Positions 4,789-15,883 of a DNA stretch of 64,000 nucleotides are shown here, piece after piece (the first letter of the stretch is position 1; every line of letters begins with the position of its first letter). The notes beneath the pieces are model-generated. The model was not told the origin of the DNA. It was given only the letters and a program-made list of their open reading frames with translations, and did no database searches. The position numbers and the translations under genes are program-made. Origin of the DNA: Nostoc sp. RI_552 (GTDB lineage Bacteria; Cyanobacteriota; Cyanobacteriia; Cyanobacteriales; Nostocaceae); assembly GCA_016124525.1 (NCBI GenBank), contig WGNO01000007.1, positions 62,001 through 126,000 of the forward strand, written 5' to 3'.

Positions 4789-5751
4789 TTAGTTAGGAGA
4801 GGGATTGGAGGGGAGGTTTTGTAAAAGCCATTGCTTGATAACTTGAGTGACAAACTGATTACCTTCCAAGTTGAGGTGTATGTGATCTTGATACAAGGTT
4901 TTTGGTTGGGGGTGTGCGTTGAGTAATGGTAAACAATCTATATAAGTAATTTGCTGGGTTTTGGTAAAATCAATCAATCTTTGACGGGTTTTAATTTCAT
5001 AGTTCCGGGGTCCTGGTTCACCAATTTCTCGCAATAAGGGAGTCATCACTAGCAAAAATTGGCTGTTGTTTTCATGACTCAATGCTTGGATTTGGCTAAT
5101 GGCTTCTAGATTAATTCCCACCATGTCCCCTCTTTCTTTCTGTACGGCTTTGATTTCCGGGATAGTCCGTAGTTTGATAATATACCGTTGCCATACTTCG
5201 GCTAATGCTAGGACAGGTTTTTTATCTGGGTAATTGCCATGGCGTCCTACTGGTAAAGAAGTGGGTGCAGTGCCAAATAAATCATCTGTATTAATTAGTA
5301 ATATGACAATTTGGGCTTTAAAGTTACCATATTTTTGTAAATACGCTAATTCGTTTCTGGGACTCCAAGAGTTGGCTGAAGCATTTAATACTTCTATTTC
5401 TGAGTAATTACTAATATTTAATAATTTTAAAGAACGGGTCATGAGACTGGATATTGTATTCTCTTGGTCTGTCCACCAGCCACCATTAGCAATAGAATCT
5501 CCGATAATCAGCACTCGCAGGGTAGAAGGTGGGGGTATTGTTTGGATGGGGCCACTTCGCATAGAATATTGATTGATTTCAATGCGATTACCAAACCGTC
5601 GGGTGCGCTGGTTAGGGGCCAATAAGTAACCAATCTGCTGGTCGGCAATATAAATGAGTGGATTACCAAAACCAAAGAGCGATCGCAATGTCACTTCAAC
5701 TATTACACATAACCCTAGGGTTGCCAAAATTATGATTAGTGCTAATTTCAC
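4789..5751 (-). CDS. Membrane-anchored SGNH/GDSL-type hydrolase
   Basis: A 320-residue protein with one N-terminal hydrophobic helix (about residues 3-25) that probably acts as a signal anchor. The SGNH blocks are present: LIIGDSIANGG (block I, nucleophile Ser), an Asn-containing NASANSWSP, and a C-terminal DHIHLNLEGN with the catalytic Asp and His. Family members are esterases, lipases or O-acyl modifying enzymes of polysaccharides. The substrate cannot be read from the sequence. Translation starts at a GTG (5751-5749). There is no clear operon partner. Confidence 0.82.
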   Translation of the reverse strand: MKLALIIILATLGLCVIVEVTLRSLFGFGNPLIYIADQQIGYLLAPNQRTRRFGNRIEINQYSMRSGPIQTIPPPSTLRVLIIGDSIANGGWWTDQENTISSLMTRSLKLLNISNYSEIEVLNASANSWSPRNELAYLQKYGNFKAQIVILLINTDDLFGTAPTSLPVGRHGNYPDKKPVLALAEVWQRYIIKLRTIPEIKAVQKERGDMVGINLEAISQIQALSHENNSQFLLVMTPLLREIGEPGPRNYEIKTRQRLIDFTKTQQITYIDCLPLLNAHPQPKTLYQDHIHLNLEGNQFVTQVIKQWLLQNLPSNPSPN

Positions 5752-6304: not shown

Positions 6305-9196
6305 ATGATAGAAATTTGGGGCGCCTTGGTTATTTTAATTGCTTGTCCCGTTTTGGGCGGGTTACCAATTATTGCTTGGATTACCTACTTCCTTAAAGGC
6401 AGGCAATTATCACAAATTGGCACTAAGAACATCAGCGTTTCAGCCGCTTTTTATCATGGCGGCACATGGGTGGGAATTCTGGCTGTTGTATCAGAAGCCT
6501 GGAAGGGAATCGGGGCAGTGTTGCTGTCTCGTGTTTTTTTTCCACCAGGATCACCTTGGGAATTAATTGCCCTCATTGCCTTAGTATTAGGTAGATATGG
6601 CCTAGGCAGAGGAGCAGGTACAACCAACGTCGTTTGGGGGTTCTTGGTACATGACCCTTTGGTGGCAGTATTTACAGGTTTACTGGCAATTATCAGTTTT
6701 ACACTTCTACAATCTAGGCAACTGGTAAAGTTTGGGGTTTTATTTGTGTTTCCTTTGTTTGTGATACTTCTGAATGTTGAAAATTTTCCCAAAATAATGG
6801 CGGCTATTGTGCTGGCTGGATTGTTGGCCTGGATTTACACAAAAATTCCCGATGATTTGAATTTACCAGCCCAAGAAGTAGATACAGATTCACAAGGAAC
6901 TTTTGCATATTTACGAGGGTATCGCCCGATTCTTTCTTTAGATGATGAGTTAGATGCGGCTGTAGTCGGACAAAAAGCTGCAACTTTATCTCAAGTTAAG
7001 CGCTGGGGCTATCCAGTGCCGAAAGGATGGGTAATTTCTGCGGTTGATGATCCCGAACAGTTGATTGCTGTGCTTCAGCCTTCTGATTTATCTCCCTTAG
7101 TAGTCCGTTCCTCGGCTATTGGGGAAGACTCTGAAAAAGCTTCGGCTGCGGGACAGTACACAACAATTTTGAATGTTACTAGCCCAACAGAATTACAAGC
7201 AGCCATTGCTCAAGTCCAAGCTTCTTACAATCATCCATCGGCTGTACAATATCGTCGCGATCGCGGGTTACCAGATACAGCAATGGCCGTGCTGGTACAA
7301 CAACAAATTCAAAGTGTGTATTCTGGTGTTGCTTTCAGTCGTGATCCTATTACTCAGCAAGGCGATGCAATTTTAATTGAAGCTTTACCAGGAAGCCCGA
7401 TTCAAGTTGTTTCTGGCAAAGTCACACCAGAACAATATCGCGCTTTTGTCATGGAAACAGATAATATTTCCTCTGTGCAAGTAGAAGGAAAAGGACAAGT
7501 ACCACAAGCATTAATCAAACAAGTAGCATACTTAGTCAGGCGACTGGAAAAACAGTATCACGGCATACCCCAAGATATGGAGTGGACTTATGATAGTCAG
7601 AATCTTTGGGTTTTGCAGTCTCGACCCATTACTACCCTATTACCTATCTGGACAAGGAAAATAGCTGCAGAAGTGATTCCTGGGGTGATTCACCCGTTAA
7701 CTTGGTCAATTAATCGCCCCTTAACTTGTGGAGTGTGGGGAGATATTTTTACTTTGGTTTTGGGGGATCGGGCTGTGGGGTTGGATTTTACTGAAACTGC
7801 AACTCTGCATTATTCTAGGGCTTATTTTAACGCCTCATTGTTAGGAGAGATTTTTCTGCGCATGGGCTTACCACGGGAAAGTCTGGAATTTTTAACCAGG
7901 GGTGCGAAAATGAGCAAACCGCCTTTAAAATCTACCTTGGCCAATTTGCCTGGATTAATACGGCTGCTGAAGCAGGAACTCAATTTAGAAAAAGACTTTA
8001 AACGGGATTATGGTCGAGTTTTTGTTCCCGCTTTGTCACAATTAACAGATGAATTTCCAGAAGCACTCCCAGGGTCACAGCTGTTGGAAAGAGTAGATTT
8101 TATTCTGGAATTGCTTCGCAGTGCAACTTATTACAGCATTTTAGCGCCGTTGAGTGTAGCCCTGAGACAGGCAATTTTTCGGGTGAAAGATGGGGAAATT
8201 GATAACAGTATTACCCCAGAAGTATCAGCATTGCGATGGCTAAGTGCTTTAGCTACAGATGCAAAAGAAATATTAGGTGAGTGTGAACCGGATCAAGTAT
8301 TTGAGCAATTAGCACAAACTCCAGAGGGAAATAAAATTGTTCATGAATTTAACGAATTATTGCAAGATTACGGTTACTTAAGTGATGTGGGGACAAATAT
8401 TGCTGTTCCTACCTGGAAAGAAAAACCTGAACCCATCAGGGAGTTGTTTGTGCAGTTATTGCACAACCGATCTGAAACAGAAGGTGTAGATTCTATCAAT
8501 CGGGTTCCATCAGCAAAGCGCAAACGAGGGATGGTGCAGCGTCGGGTAGATATTAAAGGACGAGTTACAGAATTGTATTCTCGTTTATTGGCTGAATTGC
8601 GGTGGCGATTTGTAGCTTTAGAGCAAATTTGCCTAAAATCAGGCTTGCTCCAACAAACTGGAGATATCTTTTTTCTGGAATTAGATGAAGTAAGGCGTTT
8701 AGTAGTTGGTGATGATTTTGAACTGAGGGCACATTTGTCTGAGATAGTGCAATTGAGGCGATCACAATTCGATGAAGATAGTCAGTTCAATCAAATTCCT
8801 CTGCTAGTTTACGGCAATACACCACCCCATCCTTTATCACCCTCGTCTGTTTACTCAGATCAGGTATTACAGGGTATTCCCGCTAGTCACGGTCAAGCCG
8901 AAGGAAGAATCAAAGTGCTAAGAAATTTACAAGATTTACCAGAAATCAACCGCGAGACAATTTTGGTTGTACCTTACACAGATTCCGGGTGGGCTCCTCT
9001 GTTAGTTAGGGCTGGCGGCTTAATTGCTGAAGCTGGTGGACGACTTTCTCACGGTGCTATAGTGGCTCGTGAGTACGGTATTCCTGCCATTATGGATGTT
9101 CAAAATGCAACTTGGATATTACAGGATGGCCAAAGAGTACGGATGGATGGATCTAGGGGAATTGTGGAATTATGTAATGACTTAAGACCGGATTAA
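6305..9196 (+). CDS. PlsY-like membrane domain fused to a PEP-synthase-like phosphotransferase
   Basis: A 963-residue protein with two parts. Residues 1 to about 185 form several membrane helices with glycerol-3-phosphate acyltransferase (PlsY)-like features, such as GTKNISVSAAFYHGG in the place of the usual GSGNIGATN. From about residue 213 an ATP-grasp nucleotide-binding domain of the PPDK/PEP-synthase type follows (VGQKAATLSQVKRWG, VRSSAIGEDSEKASAAGQ, QSRPITTL at its end). A long middle region of unknown function comes next, then a swivelling phosphohistidine domain with His916 in GGRLSHGAIVAREYG. The C-terminal PEP-binding TIM barrel of true PEP synthase is missing, so the order resembles rifampicin-phosphotransferase-type dikinases. 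The substrate is unknown. Confidence 0.85.
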   Translation: MIEIWGALVILIACPVLGGLPIIAWITYFLKGRQLSQIGTKNISVSAAFYHGGTWVGILAVVSEAWKGIGAVLLSRVFFPPGSPWELIALIALVLGRYGLGRGAGTTNVVWGFLVHDPLVAVFTGLLAIISFTLLQSRQLVKFGVLFVFPLFVILLNVENFPKIMAAIVLAGLLAWIYTKIPDDLNLPAQEVDTDSQGTFAYLRGYRPILSLDDELDAAVVGQKAATLSQVKRWGYPVPKGWVISAVDDPEQLIAVLQPSDLSPLVVRSSAIGEDSEKASAAGQYTTILNVTSPTELQAAIAQVQASYNHPSAVQYRRDRGLPDTAMAVLVQQQIQSVYSGVAFSRDPITQQGDAILIEALPGSPIQVVSGKVTPEQYRAFVMETDNISSVQVEGKGQVPQALIKQVAYLVRRLEKQYHGIPQDMEWTYDSQNLWVLQSRPITTLLPIWTRKIAAEVIPGVIHPLTWSINRPLTCGVWGDIFTLVLGDRAVGLDFTETATLHYSRAYFNASLLGEIFLRMGLPRESLEFLTRGAKMSKPPLKSTLANLPGLIRLLKQELNLEKDFKRDYGRVFVPALSQLTDEFPEALPGSQLLERVDFILELLRSATYYSILAPLSVALRQAIFRVKDGEIDNSITPEVSALRWLSALATDAKEILGECEPDQVFEQLAQTPEGNKIVHEFNELLQDYGYLSDVGTNIAVPTWKEKPEPIRELFVQLLHNRSETEGVDSINRVPSAKRKRGMVQRRVDIKGRVTELYSRLLAELRWRFVALEQICLKSGLLQQTGDIFFLELDEVRRLVVGDDFELRAHLSEIVQLRRSQFDEDSQFNQIPLLVYGNTPPHPLSPSSVYSDQVLQGIPASHGQAEGRIKVLRNLQDLPEINRETILVVPYTDSGWAPLLVRAGGLIAEAGGRLSHGAIVAREYGIPAIMDVQNATWILQDGQRVRMDGSRGIVELCNDLRPD

Positions 9197-11777: not shown

Positions 11778-12947
11778 ATGCTATCACGTCTAAACGTAAT
11801 CAATAACAGTCGCATAGCCGCCACAGTTTCAATGTTAGCACTGACATTGACCTTGGGGGCTTGTGGCGGACAGCAAACCTCAGAAACTCCCAGTGATACT
11901 CCTGCTACAGATGCTACAGCTACAACTCCTGTTAAATTAGACTTGGGTGGAGACGTGGCATTAACTGGTGCGGGTGCTTCTTTTCCAGCACCTTTGTTTC
12001 AAAGTTGGTTTGCGGATATCAACAAAAAGTATCCTAACTTACGAGTTAACTATCAGTCAGTAGGTAGTGGTGCTGGCGTTGAGCAATTTACCAAGGGTAC
12101 TGTAGACTTTGGTGCCAGTGATGTAGCTATGAAGGATGAAGAAATTCAGCAGGTACCACAAGACAAGGGCGTAATTATGCTGCCGGTGACAGCAGGTGGA
12201 GTGGTACTGGCTTACAATTTGCCTGATGTCCCAGAACTAAAGCTACCAAGAGACTTGTACGTAGACATTATTTTGGGTAAAGTGAAGAAATGGAACGATG
12301 CCAGGATTGTTGCAGCCAACCCGGATGCCAAGCTTCCTGACCAGTCAATTACATGGGTACATCGTTCTGATGGTAGTGGTACTACAGGTGTGTTTACCAA
12401 ACACTTGGCTGCTATTAGTCAAGAGTGGAAAGATCAAGTTGGCGAAGGTAAAACTGTAGACTGGCCAGTAGGAGTGGGTGGCAAAGGTAATGAAGGCGTG
12501 ACTGCCCAAGTTCAACAAACTCAGGGTTCCATTGGTTACATTGAGTATGGCTACGCCAAGCAAAATAACATCAACTTTGCTACCTTGGAAAACAAGGCAG
12601 GCAAATTTGTTAAATACAATGACGAATCAGCATCTAAAACTTTAGCGGCGATAGAATTGCCAGAAAATCTCCGTGCCTTTGTACCAGATCCGGATGGGGA
12701 GAATTCCTATCCCATTGTGAGTTTTAGTTGGATTCTTGCTTACGAAAATTATCCTGATGCCAACAAGGCAAAAGCAATGGAAGCAGTAATTGAGTACGTT
12801 TTAACTGAAGGACAAAAAGTATCTGGTGAATTAGGGTATATTCCTATCCCCCAACCTGTGGCAGAAAAAGTCGCAGCTGCGGCAGATAAAATTAGTCCTG
12901 ATTATCAAATATCCGTAACTGGCAGTGGTAGTAGTGCTAGCAACTAG
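11778..12947 (+). CDS. pstS: Phosphate ABC transporter substrate-binding lipoprotein PstS
   Basis: A 389-residue PstS. The lipobox TLGAC puts the lipidated Cys at residue 29, followed by a Thr/Ala-rich linker. Phosphate-binding signatures are intact: LTGAGASFPAPLFQSW, VGSGAGVEQF, FGASDVAMK and HRSDGSGTTGVFT. It captures phosphate in the periplasm for PstCAB, which follow on the same strand. A Pho-box-like repeat lies upstream and a nested stem-loop separates it from pstC, consistent with higher PstS than permease levels. Confidence 0.96.
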   Translation: MLSRLNVINNSRIAATVSMLALTLTLGACGGQQTSETPSDTPATDATATTPVKLDLGGDVALTGAGASFPAPLFQSWFADINKKYPNLRVNYQSVGSGAGVEQFTKGTVDFGASDVAMKDEEIQQVPQDKGVIMLPVTAGGVVLAYNLPDVPELKLPRDLYVDIILGKVKKWNDARIVAANPDAKLPDQSITWVHRSDGSGTTGVFTKHLAAISQEWKDQVGEGKTVDWPVGVGGKGNEGVTAQVQQTQGSIGYIEYGYAKQNNINFATLENKAGKFVKYNDESASKTLAAIELPENLRAFVPDPDGENSYPIVSFSWILAYENYPDANKAKAMEAVIEYVLTEGQKVSGELGYIPIPQPVAEKVAAAADKISPDYQISVTGSGSSASN

Positions 12948-13025
12948 TGCTCAGAAATTGCCAACAGCAGCAATTGAAAAGGTGGATTAGCTGAAATCAA
13001 AGGTTAATGAGCAGTTAAATAGAGT

Positions 13026-13101
13026 GTCGCTTTACTAACATTTGCAACTGGCAATTCTGACATCTAAGCCTATGTCAAACTTGCAAAGTTGATAAAGCGA
13101 C
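13026..13101 (+). repeat. Three-tier nested stem-loop between pstS and pstC
   Basis: Three nested inverted pairs are perfect: GTCGCTTTA (13026) with TAAAGCGAC (13093), TTTGCAA (13041) with TTGCAAA (13081), and GACAT (13059) with ATGTC (13072). The likely role is partial termination or mRNA protection that raises PstS over PstCAB. This is inference from position and structure. Confidence 0.65.
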
Positions 13102-13163
13102 AACTTTATTAACCTGTTTCGCTACCACATTTTTATCCCATTTAATTGTTACATTTAGTAGTC

Positions 13164-14117
13164 ATGACTACAAATTCTCCAACTCTGCAATCGGCAGATA
13201 TCAAAGGTCGCTCTCAACTGAGAAATTCTCTGGACCGAAGCTTTATTTGGCTGACTCGAACTTTTGCCTTAGCTGTAGCCGGTACTTTATTATGGATTGC
13301 TGTACAGGTTACTTTAGAAGCCTGGCCAGCCATTCAAAAATATGGTGTAGCCTTTTTATTTAAAAGTGCTTGGAATCCAGTTATCGATGATTATGGGGTG
13401 CTGCCGCAAATTTATGGAACTTTGTTAAGTTCTTTTATTGGTTTGTTCATAGCTGTGCCTATTGGTGTCGGAACTGCTGTGTTATTGAGCGAAAATTTTC
13501 TCCCTATTCAAGTGCGCACTGTAACAGTATTTTTAGTAGAACTGCTGGCTGCTATTCCCAGTGTTGTTTACGGAATATGGGGTATTTTCGTTTTAATTCC
13601 GATTTTGAATCAAGTAGGGAAATGGATTCATACTTATTTTGGCTGGATACCATTTTTTAGCACTCCACCCACAGGTCCATCCATGTTTCCTGCGGGGGTC
13701 ATTTTGGCGATTATGATTGTGCCAATCATTACAGCTATATCTCGTGATGCACTAATTTCTGTACCTTCCGCCCTGCGTCAAGCATCCATGGGACTAGGTG
13801 CTACTCGTTGGGAAACTATTTTCATGGTAATTATTCCATCTGCCTTTTCGGGGATTGTCAGTGCTGTGATGCTGGCACTTGGTCGGGCGATGGGAGAAAC
13901 AATGGCCGTAACAATGTTGATTGGTAACGCCAACAATATTAACATCTCAATTTTTGCTCCAGCTAATACCATAGCTTCTCTGCTGGCAAATCAATTTGCG
14001 GAAGCTGGTGGTTTGCAAGTTGCGGCTTTAATGTACGCAGGCTTGGTTTTGTTTTTTATTACACTTTTTGTCAACGTCATGGCAGAGTGGATTGTTTTGC
14101 GAGTGAAGCGAATCTAG
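13164..14117 (+). CDS. pstC: Phosphate ABC transporter permease PstC
   Basis: About 317 residues with six membrane helices and the BPD_transp_1 fold. The EAA-type cytoplasmic loop reads SVPSALRQASMGLGATRWETI. The large periplasmic loop after AAIPSVVYGIWGIFV is typical of PstC. The ATG at 13164 is preferred to an in-frame TTG at 13146 because it starts the usual MTTNSP N-terminus. Part of pstSCAB; pstA starts 19 bases after its stop. Confidence 0.95.
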   Translation: MTTNSPTLQSADIKGRSQLRNSLDRSFIWLTRTFALAVAGTLLWIAVQVTLEAWPAIQKYGVAFLFKSAWNPVIDDYGVLPQIYGTLLSSFIGLFIAVPIGVGTAVLLSENFLPIQVRTVTVFLVELLAAIPSVVYGIWGIFVLIPILNQVGKWIHTYFGWIPFFSTPPTGPSMFPAGVILAIMIVPIITAISRDALISVPSALRQASMGLGATRWETIFMVIIPSAFSGIVSAVMLALGRAMGETMAVTMLIGNANNINISIFAPANTIASLLANQFAEAGGLQVAALMYAGLVLFFITLFVNVMAEWIVLRVKRI

Positions 14118-14136
14118 GGTGGTTTTAGATTTAATT

Positions 14137-15018
14137 ATGACATCGAAATTTCCTCAACGCAGTTTAACGCGTTCTCCTCAATCTCCCCGGACTCTGTTTA
14201 ATTCAGTGATGACCGTGGTAGCATTTATCTGTGGGGGACTAGTGTTAGTGCCTTTAGTGGCAGTAATTACTTACATCGTGATTAAGGGCTTTAGTAGTCT
14301 GGAACTTCGTGTGTTTACTGAACTACCACCCCCACCCATGAGACAGGGAGGAGGTTTTGGTAACGCCATTGTAGGAACCATAATCATGGTCAGCATTGCT
14401 GCATTGATTAGCATTCCCTTCGGTGTTTTAGCTGCAATTTACTTAACAGAATTCAGCACTGGTAAGCTGGCGAGATGGATACGATTTGCTACTAACGTTC
14501 TCAGTGGAGTTCCCTCAATTATTGCTGGAGTATTTGCCTACGGAATTGTGGTTTTGGGGTTAGTCAAGTTGAACTTGGGCTCATACTCAGCTATTGGTGG
14601 TGGGTTCGCTTTGTCAATTTTGATGTTGCCAATTATTGTAAAAACCACAGATGAAGCGTTACAGTTAGTATCCCAAGACTTGCGCCAAGCATCTGTGGGT
14701 TTAGGAGCTACTAACTTTCAAACAGTAACACAAGTTGTGTTGCCAGCTGCGCTACCAGCAATTGTCACTGGTTCAAGCTTGGCCATCGCTCGTGCTTCAG
14801 GGGAAACTGCTCCTTTATTGTTTACGGCTTTATTCTCCCAATTTTGGCCTGATGGCTTATTGGAGCCTACTCCTTCTTTGGCTGTTTTAGTTTACAACTT
14901 CGCAATTTCTCCTTTTGCAAATTGGCAATCACTAGCTTGGGCAGGCTCTTTGGTATTGGTATTGATGGTTTTGATTACGAGCATTTTCGCTCGTTGGGCA
15001 ACTAGTCGAAAAGCTTAG
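14137..15018 (+). CDS. pstA: Phosphate ABC transporter permease PstA
   Basis: About 293 residues, the second membrane subunit of the phosphate transporter. Six hydrophobic helices are visible, with VLSGVPSIIAGVFAYG and the EAA loop DLRQASVGLGATNFQTVTQV. I take the ATG at 14137, since the upstream GTG at 14119 lies only two bases after the pstC stop and gives a poor N-terminus. It is followed by pstB 61 bases later. Confidence 0.95.
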   Translation: MTSKFPQRSLTRSPQSPRTLFNSVMTVVAFICGGLVLVPLVAVITYIVIKGFSSLELRVFTELPPPPMRQGGGFGNAIVGTIIMVSIAALISIPFGVLAAIYLTEFSTGKLARWIRFATNVLSGVPSIIAGVFAYGIVVLGLVKLNLGSYSAIGGGFALSILMLPIIVKTTDEALQLVSQDLRQASVGLGATNFQTVTQVVLPAALPAIVTGSSLAIARASGETAPLLFTALFSQFWPDGLLEPTPSLAVLVYNFAISPFANWQSLAWAGSLVLVLMVLITSIFARWATSRKA

Positions 15019-15079
15019 TGAAACCGTAGCTCAATTGCGTTTCTCTATCGCTAAAATTTACATTACATTACAATAGATT

Positions 15080-15883
15080 ATGTCTACTAACACTAGTACG
15101 GTGAATAACACTGAAACCGTTTTACGGACAGAAAATCTGAACGTTTACTACGGAAAGTTTTTAGCTTTGCAGAGTATTTGGCTGGATATCCCGAAAAATA
15201 AGGTGACATCCTTTATTGGCCCTTCTGGCTGCGGTAAAAGTACATTGCTGCGATGCTATAACCGTCTGAATGATCTGATTGATTCGTTCCGAGCCGAAGG
15301 TAAAATTTATTTTTACAATGATAATCTGTATGCACCAAATATTGATCCTGTAGAGGTGCGCCGGAGAATTGGGATGGTATTTCAAAGACCAAACCCGTTT
15401 CCTAAATCGATCTATGACAATATCACTTTTGGAGCAAAAATCAATGGGTATAAAGGTAATTTTGATGAATTAGTAGAAAGAAGTCTGCGACAAGCAGCTT
15501 TGTGGGATGAAGTCAAAGATAAACTGCGGCAAAGTGGAGCATCTTTATCTGGAGGACAACAACAACGGTTGTGTATTGCCAGAGCGATCGCGGTACAACC
15601 GGAAATTATTCTCATGGATGAACCTTGTTCAGCCCTAGACCCTGTTTCTACTCTGCGGGTTGAAGAACTAATTCATCAACTGAAACAAAATTATACTATT
15701 GTCATCGTAACTCACAATATGCAACAAGCGGCGCGAGTTTCCGATTATACAGCATTTTTCAATGTGAAAGTTTCAGAAGGTGGTCGCAGTGGTTATTTAG
15801 TTGAATACAACTCTACACAAGCCATTTTTAATGACCCGCAGCAAGAAGATACGCGAAATTATGTCAGTGGTAGATTTGGTTAA
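15080..15883 (+). CDS. pstB: Phosphate ABC transporter ATPase PstB
   Basis: A 267-residue ABC ATPase energising phosphate import. Walker A is GPSGCGKST, the Q-loop region [15 protein letters not shown] is diagnostic of PstB, the signature is LSGGQQQR, Walker B is [12 protein letters not shown], and the switch His is in VTHNMQQA. The length is normal. It ends the pstSCAB cluster; no phoU follows. About 200 bases of non-coding DNA separate it from a decayed transposase. Confidence 0.96.

Follow-up and report, generated by a model that had tools for sequence, protein, structure and literature searches.

What reaction might be carried out by a protein that joins a membrane acyltransferase fold to a phosphotransfer enzyme? 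This question is raised by a gene of Nostoc sp. RI_552, located in a window of 64,000 nucleotides (the whole stretch of DNA that was analysed; contig WGNO01000007.1, positions 62,001 to 126,000). Its product begins with a domain resembling PlsY, the acyl-phosphate:glycerol 3-phosphate (G3P) acyltransferase, and continues as a dikinase of the rifampin phosphotransferase (RPH) type. A previous sequence-only reading had suggested that this protein couples the phosphorylation of a possibly lipid-related substrate to the membrane, an interpretation which, as a whole, is partly supported by the present analysis. Both folds and the ATP-side residues of the dikinase are kept, and the residues that define the acceptor sites of PlsY and RPH are replaced. 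We tentatively favour a membrane-bound RPH-type dikinase, in which phosphate would pass from His916 to an acceptor held by, or entering via, a remodelled PlsY-derived pocket.

Domain order and predicted folds

The open reading frame (ORF) runs from an ATG at 6305 to a stop codon at 9194–9196, and its product is matched by the Pfam domains G3P_acyltransf (PF02660, residues 14–176, 54.5 bits for a cut-off of 24.1), PPDK_N (PF01326, residues 263–445, 155.9 bits) and PEP-utilizers (PF00391, residues 882–952, 79.1 bits; Table 1). No phosphoenolpyruvate (PEP)/pyruvate barrel was detected among the Pfam domains of the 963-residue protein, which ends with the phosphohistidine domain. The frame, its fused domains, the absence of a barrel and the location of His916 in the phosphohistidine domain had all been proposed from the sequence, and are confirmed here.

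To describe the folds we relied on a full-length AlphaFold2 model built from 41 sequences (mean predicted local distance difference test score (pLDDT) 74.7, predicted template modelling score (pTM) 0.46), of which the single domains are usable and the arrangement is not. As had been claimed, the modelled N-terminal domain folds like PlsY (5xj6; Z 18.1, root-mean-square deviation 3.0, 183 aligned residues), and a pairwise hhalign comparison of the membrane domain with PlsY gave a probability of 97 and an E-value of 7.4e-11. Evidence for the PlsY kinship of this domain comes from Pfam, from hhalign and from comparison of the folds; a single-sequence phmmer search of residues 1–190 against the PDB returned no match even at E 10. 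The RPH-type nature of the remainder was likewise borne out by structure comparison: the modelled ATP-grasp domain matches RPH chain 5hv6_A (Z 21.4), and Foldseek with the full-length model ranked RPH first, with PlsY chains at E of about 1e-4.

The middle domain, described as unknown in the earlier reading, can now be assigned a predicted fold. Residues 446–849 modelled alone (pLDDT 84.8, pTM 0.86) superimpose on the rifampin-binding domain of RPH (5hv2; Z 20.7, root-mean-square deviation 3.9, 340 aligned residues), whereas the best unrelated chain reached a Z of only 5.8. A full PEP synthase was rejected on the basis of this fold and of the absence of a barrel in Pfam. In addition, the family profile aligns with RPH chain 5hv2 (123–877) at 306 bits, and phmmer aligns residues 773–957 with residues 689–866 of RPH chain 5fbs. 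The swivel domain, poorly modelled in the full-length prediction (pLDDT below 50 around residues 892–925), was assigned from sequence. Taken together, models and alignments indicate that the protein is a PlsY fold followed by a complete RPH-type dikinase. Neither of the two outcomes that the earlier reading had named as fatal to it, an N-terminal domain unlike PlsY in fold or a full PEP synthase barrel in another part of the structure, was observed.

Table 1. Coordinates of the fused gene, its predicted domains and sites, and the neighbouring lipase-like gene (window positions)
Feature	Residues	Position	Strand	Basis
Fused gene, PlsY-like membrane domain and RPH-type dikinase	963 aa	6305..9196	+	ORF, Pfam, conserved architecture
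PlsY-fold membrane domain	1–190	6305..6874	+	PF02660, 5xj6 fold match, hhalign
Equivalent of PlsY motif 1 (GTKNISVSAAFY)	39–50	6419..6454	+	
PlsY motif 2 region	96–112	6590..6640	+	
ATP-grasp domain (conserved K224, R268, E426, Q438, R440)	207–445	6923..7639	+	PF01326, 5hv6_A, conservation
Central acceptor-type domain, predicted RPH rifampin-binding-domain fold	446–845	7640..8839	+	Model of 446–849
K751-G752, columns of RPH catalytic Arg666-Glu667 (block 9)	751–752	8555..8560	+	MAFFT alignment
C-terminal phosphohistidine swivel domain	850–957	8852..9175	+	PF00391, phmmer against 5fbs
His916, predicted phospho-carrier	916	9050..9052	+	Conservation; aligned with RPH histidine segment
GDSL-like lipase/acylhydrolase, divergently transcribed beside the fused gene		4789..5751	-	Homologue recurrence

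With Listeria RPH (5hv1, 5fbs), the protein shares the order of ATP-grasp, central acceptor domain and C-terminal His swivel, the folds of the first two, the swivel by sequence, and the ATP-site residues and carrier His; it differs by the added N-terminal PlsY-like membrane domain and by Lys-Gly in place of Arg666-Glu667. PEP synthase and PPDK have ATP-grasp and phosphohistidine domains in common with it, whereas the fused protein lacks a detected PEP/pyruvate barrel and carries its His domain at the C terminus. The phenol-type dikinases HpeHI, CreHI and PpsAB, with which the model was compared through a structure match to 9goj, use the same RPH-type ATP-grasp and His-swivel chemistry but consist of two separate proteins, and no membrane domain is described in the excerpts available from PMC12167813.

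Residues of the donor and acceptor sites

Conservation was analysed in an alignment of 125 rows (122 distinct sequences, the source protein being present twice and some genomes coming from two collections). On the ATP side, K224 is found in 122/125 rows and R268, E426 and R440 each in 125/125. His916 is present in 121/125 rows and replaced by Gln in four (L105, L132, L133 and L134). Three of these, L132–L134, are divergent fused members that have lost K224, H916 and PlsY motif 1 and persist as long ORFs; judged by these residues, they are probably dead as dikinases.

A different picture emerges for the acceptor side of the dikinase. According to excerpts of the RPH study (PMC4844700), the phosphate and the carrier His are positioned by Arg666 and Glu667, and Ala mutants of these residues continue to consume ATP but fail to phosphorylate rifampin. 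The same authors report that the Arg-Glu pair and a Lys are still found in clade Q, the most remote part of the RPH tree. At the corresponding columns of our MAFFT alignment, the fused family carries K751 (121/125 rows) and G752 (114/125), and the Lys-Gly pair occurs in 23 of the 30 fused rows of the tree; the only fused rows with Glu at the Glu667 column are L133 and L134, both devoid of the carrier His. Among the unfused relatives, by comparison, all 23 rows with a residue at the Glu column have an acid there (18 RE, 3 RD, 1 DE and 1 AD; one further row has a gap and the duplicate row L191 was removed). The register of Lys-Gly against Arg-Glu is that of MAFFT and depends on the alignment, since HMMER assigns the RPH motif to an insert and the register moves by one position when counted back from the phmmer alignment; in none of the three alignments is Glu667 matched by an acid. 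By residue criteria the fused protein is not an RPH, and a rifampin-inactivating RPH was also rejected from the NCBIfam model RIF_Ptrans_rph (223.6 bits, cut-off 999).

Similar changes are seen at the active site of the membrane domain. In Aquifex PlsY (aaPlsY), as described in excerpts of PMC5700162, S35, R45, K104 and N180 clamp the phosphate of G3P, S142 and H177 bind its 2-OH, and the acyl-phosphate hole is formed by H92 and the backbone amides of residues 104–107, while A40 and T41 lie at the carbonyl; replacing residues of the phosphate clamp by Ala costs >92% of activity. The fused protein shares with PlsY (5xj5–5xj9) the fold and the position of two active-site loops, yet the counterparts differ in motif 1 (S35 to T40, T41 to S46, R45 to Y50) and in motif 2 (H92 to R97, K104 to A104), where Gly 103 and 105 are as in Aquifex PlsY. 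The profile alignment also maps S142 to K142 in the source protein; H177 and N180 lie beyond it, and a PDD motif occupies that place in the fused family. Arg at position 50 and Lys at position 104 were each found in 0/125 rows, as was the HxxN spacing of H177/N180 at the C-terminal end of the membrane domain, while Ser at position 142 remains in 6/125 and R97 is invariant (125/125). As a control, 21/21 canonical cyanobacterial PlsYs, that of the source genome included, keep S35, R45, H92, K104, S142, H177 and N180, and HxxN lies near the C terminus in 22/22 canonical PlsY sequences, Aquifex included. With these substitutions the G3P clamp is lost, and by residue criteria the domain is not a working PlsY; the earlier label "acyltransferase-like" thus holds for the fold and fails for G3P acylation.

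Loss of the clamp is not accompanied by decay. Owing to the redundancy of the 125-row alignment, constraint was compared in 38 representatives below 70% identity, and the degenerate members L132–L134 as well as rows covering 850 or fewer residues were left out of this and of the polar-residue counts. Mean identity was 0.521 for the membrane domain, 0.541 for ATP-grasp, 0.513 for the middle domain and 0.605 for the swivel; the membrane domain is therefore as constrained as the catalytic domains and is not decaying. Ten of its 17 conserved polar residues surround the PlsY active-site loops, within limits drawn after the alignment had been seen, and 6/17 fall in the published motifs plus H92 (21/190 positions; Fisher p 0.005). 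From this pattern we read the domain as a remodelled pocket rather than a mere anchor. Overall, by the sequence and model features tested, the fused protein is neither a PlsY, nor a rifampin phosphotransferase, nor a PEP synthase.

Distribution, divergent members and gene context

Homologues were searched for in a sample of 292 genomes drawn across the phylum. A match at 1e-10 or better was obtained in 131/292 genomes and a strong match (best E 1e-76 or better, counted by hand) in 84/292, all in the source genome's own class; the 84 include three genomes with degenerate members and two in which the match is divided between frames or contigs (G215, G074). A scan of the contig collection with short query patterns, which detects close relatives only, yielded 66 loci, 63 of them with cyanobacterial titles (Nostocales, Leptolyngbya-type, Microcoleus, Coleofasciculaceae, Thermosynechococcus, Acaryochloridaceae and others) and three representing distant unfused proteins from metagenome-assembled genomes (MAGs) of Deltaproteobacteria and Nitrospirae. 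As strong matches recur in 84/292 genomes, the fusion is not a chance joining or an assembly artefact, and both were rejected. In a FastTree phylogeny (56 rows, midpoint-rooted), all 30 fused proteins and one short paralogue form one clade (31/31, support 0.987), a topology that fits a single fusion event.

Replacement of canonical PlsY by the fusion was rejected: at least two PF02660 matches were found in 92/100 relatives and, among the matches listed, PF02660 frames measure either about 210–330 aa (canonical) or 955–1031 aa (fused). The source genome itself encodes a canonical PlsY (183 bits, contig C17); elsewhere in it, a frame of 820 aa matches PPDK_N strongly and has PEP-synthase order, so that neither enzyme has been replaced by the fused gene.

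Two genomes depart from this scheme. In G170, a full-length copy is accompanied by a 601-aa paralogue, L119 (3959–5761, minus strand), which lacks the middle domain and consists of the membrane domain, the ATP-grasp domain and the swivel. L119 keeps K224, R268, E426, R440 and H916 and carries Q438H and D893K; its membrane domain shows N42T, S46P, N108S, G103S and a gap at Y50. The other, G051 (locus L151, G051:C1; a single contig, 99% complete), contains both the fusion and PlsX, and no canonical PlsY match was found in it. The fusion could stand in for PlsY there; a deletion at this place or a gap in the assembly is more likely, because the missing PlsY coincides with a synteny break relative to the sister genome G233 (locus L150, G233:C1), which does have a canonical PlsY and whose fused N-domain is identical to that of G051 (205/205). 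Three PF01553 acyltransferase matches are present in each of the two genomes.

The gene order around the fused gene was compared in 98 loci. A homologue of the adjacent GDSL-like gene lies nearby in 37/98, mostly divergently upstream; 36 of these 37 loci are Nostoc-type, and only one belongs to the set treated as diverse. Downstream in the window (11778–15883) are, judged by their translations, putative pstS-pstC-pstA-pstB-like phosphate transport genes.

We also analysed 28 loci of unfused RPH-like dikinases. Three (L177, L179, L183) have no called dikinase ORF and L191 duplicates L136, leaving 24: 21 from the source phylum and three (L098–L100) from Deltaproteobacteria/Nitrospirae MAGs. In 9/24 loci a UbiA-like gene lies directly beside the dikinase gene. 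Four of the nine UbiA-like neighbours were checked with Pfam, all above the PF01040 cut-off, and the other five were recognised by phmmer similarity. Seven of the nine loci also contain a DUF3419 (BtaA-like) gene; the betaine-lipid enzyme BtaA belongs to this Pfam family, according to excerpts of PMC6642084. Some loci add an AMP-binding ligase, a GNAT protein and a weakly phytol-kinase-like protein (18.8 bits, under the Pfam cut-off of 24). This candidate lipid pathway, judged from gene content, was observed at L135:909-7346, L191:3327-11245, L138, L140, L139:2722-7495, L173:4401-9216, L176:5615-9611, L187:3257-8887 and L190:3960-10628, and also occurs in source-phylum genomes outside the source genome's class; no description of the UbiA/DUF3419/dikinase set was found in open-licence PMC papers. 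Its dikinases share the domain order of the fused protein and have a membrane enzyme of lipid type encoded next to them, but they form a separate clade in the 56-row tree, keep Arg-Glu and have UbiA as partner instead of a PlsY-like domain. As a separate observation, L174, L175 and L180, also from the source phylum, carry the RPH YREYPK motif and may encode rifamycin-type phosphotransferases.

The predicted acceptor and its rivals

In dikinases of this kind a histidine is phosphorylated by the ATP-grasp domain, AMP and Pi being released, and the phosphate then travels on the swivel domain. In the reading that we favour, the ATP-grasp domain would charge His916 (ATP to AMP and Pi) and the swivel would carry the phosphate from His916 to an acceptor that is amphiphilic and probably resembles a lipid. 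This acceptor would sit in the PlsY-derived membrane pocket or arrive by way of it, and the two PlsY active-site loops of the pocket would keep their place with changed residues; the product would be a phosphorylated lipid-like molecule, with no acylation of G3P. The acceptor would be new, since the residues that define the two inherited acceptor sites are gone and the donor side is intact, and probably lipid-like and membrane-borne, because a PlsY-derived pocket with conserved residues of its own is attached. We lean towards a handover in the membrane pocket rather than in the middle domain, given the loss of Arg-Glu and, weakly, the architecture of L119. Formation of acyl phosphate, PlsY's own donor substrate, from a fatty acid might be an attractive special case. 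Membrane-coupled phosphorylation of a possibly lipid-related substrate, as suggested by the sequence-only reading, is thus also what we infer as most likely, and the UbiA-linked clade offers circumstantial backing, by analogy, for the broader notion of a partnership between dikinases of this sort and membrane enzymes of lipid type.

Several observations weigh against this reading. No assigned substrate, product or activity of the fused protein was found. Docking of the domains is not readable from the full-length model at its pTM. No conserved lipid operon was seen in the 98 loci, and the GDSL gene, although the commonest neighbour, is lineage-bound. The UbiA context is an analogy only, its clade being separate, and L119 may be decaying, hence its weak support. 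Finally, the middle domain is well conserved and may hold an acceptor site with new residues, K751 and R747.

This last point leads to a possible, though on balance unlikely, alternative, in which an RPH-like dikinase would phosphorylate a small soluble or amphiphilic substrate in the middle domain, with the PlsY part as anchor or entry route. The domain does keep the RPH acceptor fold and many invariant residues, and rifampin and phenolics are substrates of known relatives (excerpts of PMC4844700 and PMC12167813); a passive anchor, however, is not expected to keep polar residues in two PlsY active-site loops, and the Arg-Glu pair that RPH needs to phosphorylate its acceptor is gone. The opposite arrangement, in which the PlsY-derived pocket would have replaced the RPH central site, is rather unlikely in our estimation: the phospho-His916 swivel would dock on the membrane domain and phosphorylate there a lipid such as a fatty acid (which would yield acyl phosphate independently of PlsX), a polyprenol or another lipid alcohol. 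We consider improbable a scheme in which the carboxylate of a fatty acid would be phosphorylated by the dikinase part, and the acyl phosphate would be bound by the PlsY-derived domain, which would transfer the acyl group to an acceptor other than G3P. Acyl phosphate is PlsY's donor, and counterparts of the donor site are present (T41 to S46, H92 to the invariant Arg97, Gly 103/105) while the G3P clamp is lost; against this, H92 and A40 are changed, G105 is a poor marker that canonical cyanobacterial PlsYs do not keep either, no dikinase-type fatty-acid kinase was found in open-licence PMC papers, and no residue predicts the acyl acceptor.

A pseudoenzyme or sensor, with phosphorylation of His916 itself as output and no small-molecule product, would account for the loss of acceptor residues in both candidate sites and for the persistence as long ORFs of three members without K224 and H916; it appears quite improbable, as nearly all members keep the ATP-site residues and His916, together with a large conserved middle domain. 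A bifunctional enzyme retaining G3P acylation is highly improbable. The PlsY fold is kept, G051 has PlsX and the fusion without a detected canonical PlsY, and six of the 125 rows have Ser at the S142 column, but the Arg45 and Lys104 counterparts and the HxxN of H177/N180 are absent from every row, activity drops by >92% in clamp Ala mutants of aaPlsY (excerpts of PMC5700162), and the G051 gap is likelier a local deletion or assembly gap, in a genome that, like G233, has three PF01553 matches.

No description of the fusion itself was found in open-licence PMC papers. The enzyme delineated here is conserved widely among cyanobacteria; it combines two thoroughly characterised active sites that keep their folds and have their acceptor residues swapped, and names transferred from single domains ("glycerol-3-phosphate acyltransferase", "PEP synthase") would mislead. 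Should the swivel indeed dock on the membrane domain, the enzyme would be a lipid kinase combining dikinase chemistry (ATP to AMP and Pi) with a converted acyltransferase fold. More generally, if a lipid is phosphorylated, cyanobacteria would activate lipids by a step not described so far, powered by the dikinase conversion of ATP to AMP, and a paralogue of PlsY would have been neofunctionalised.

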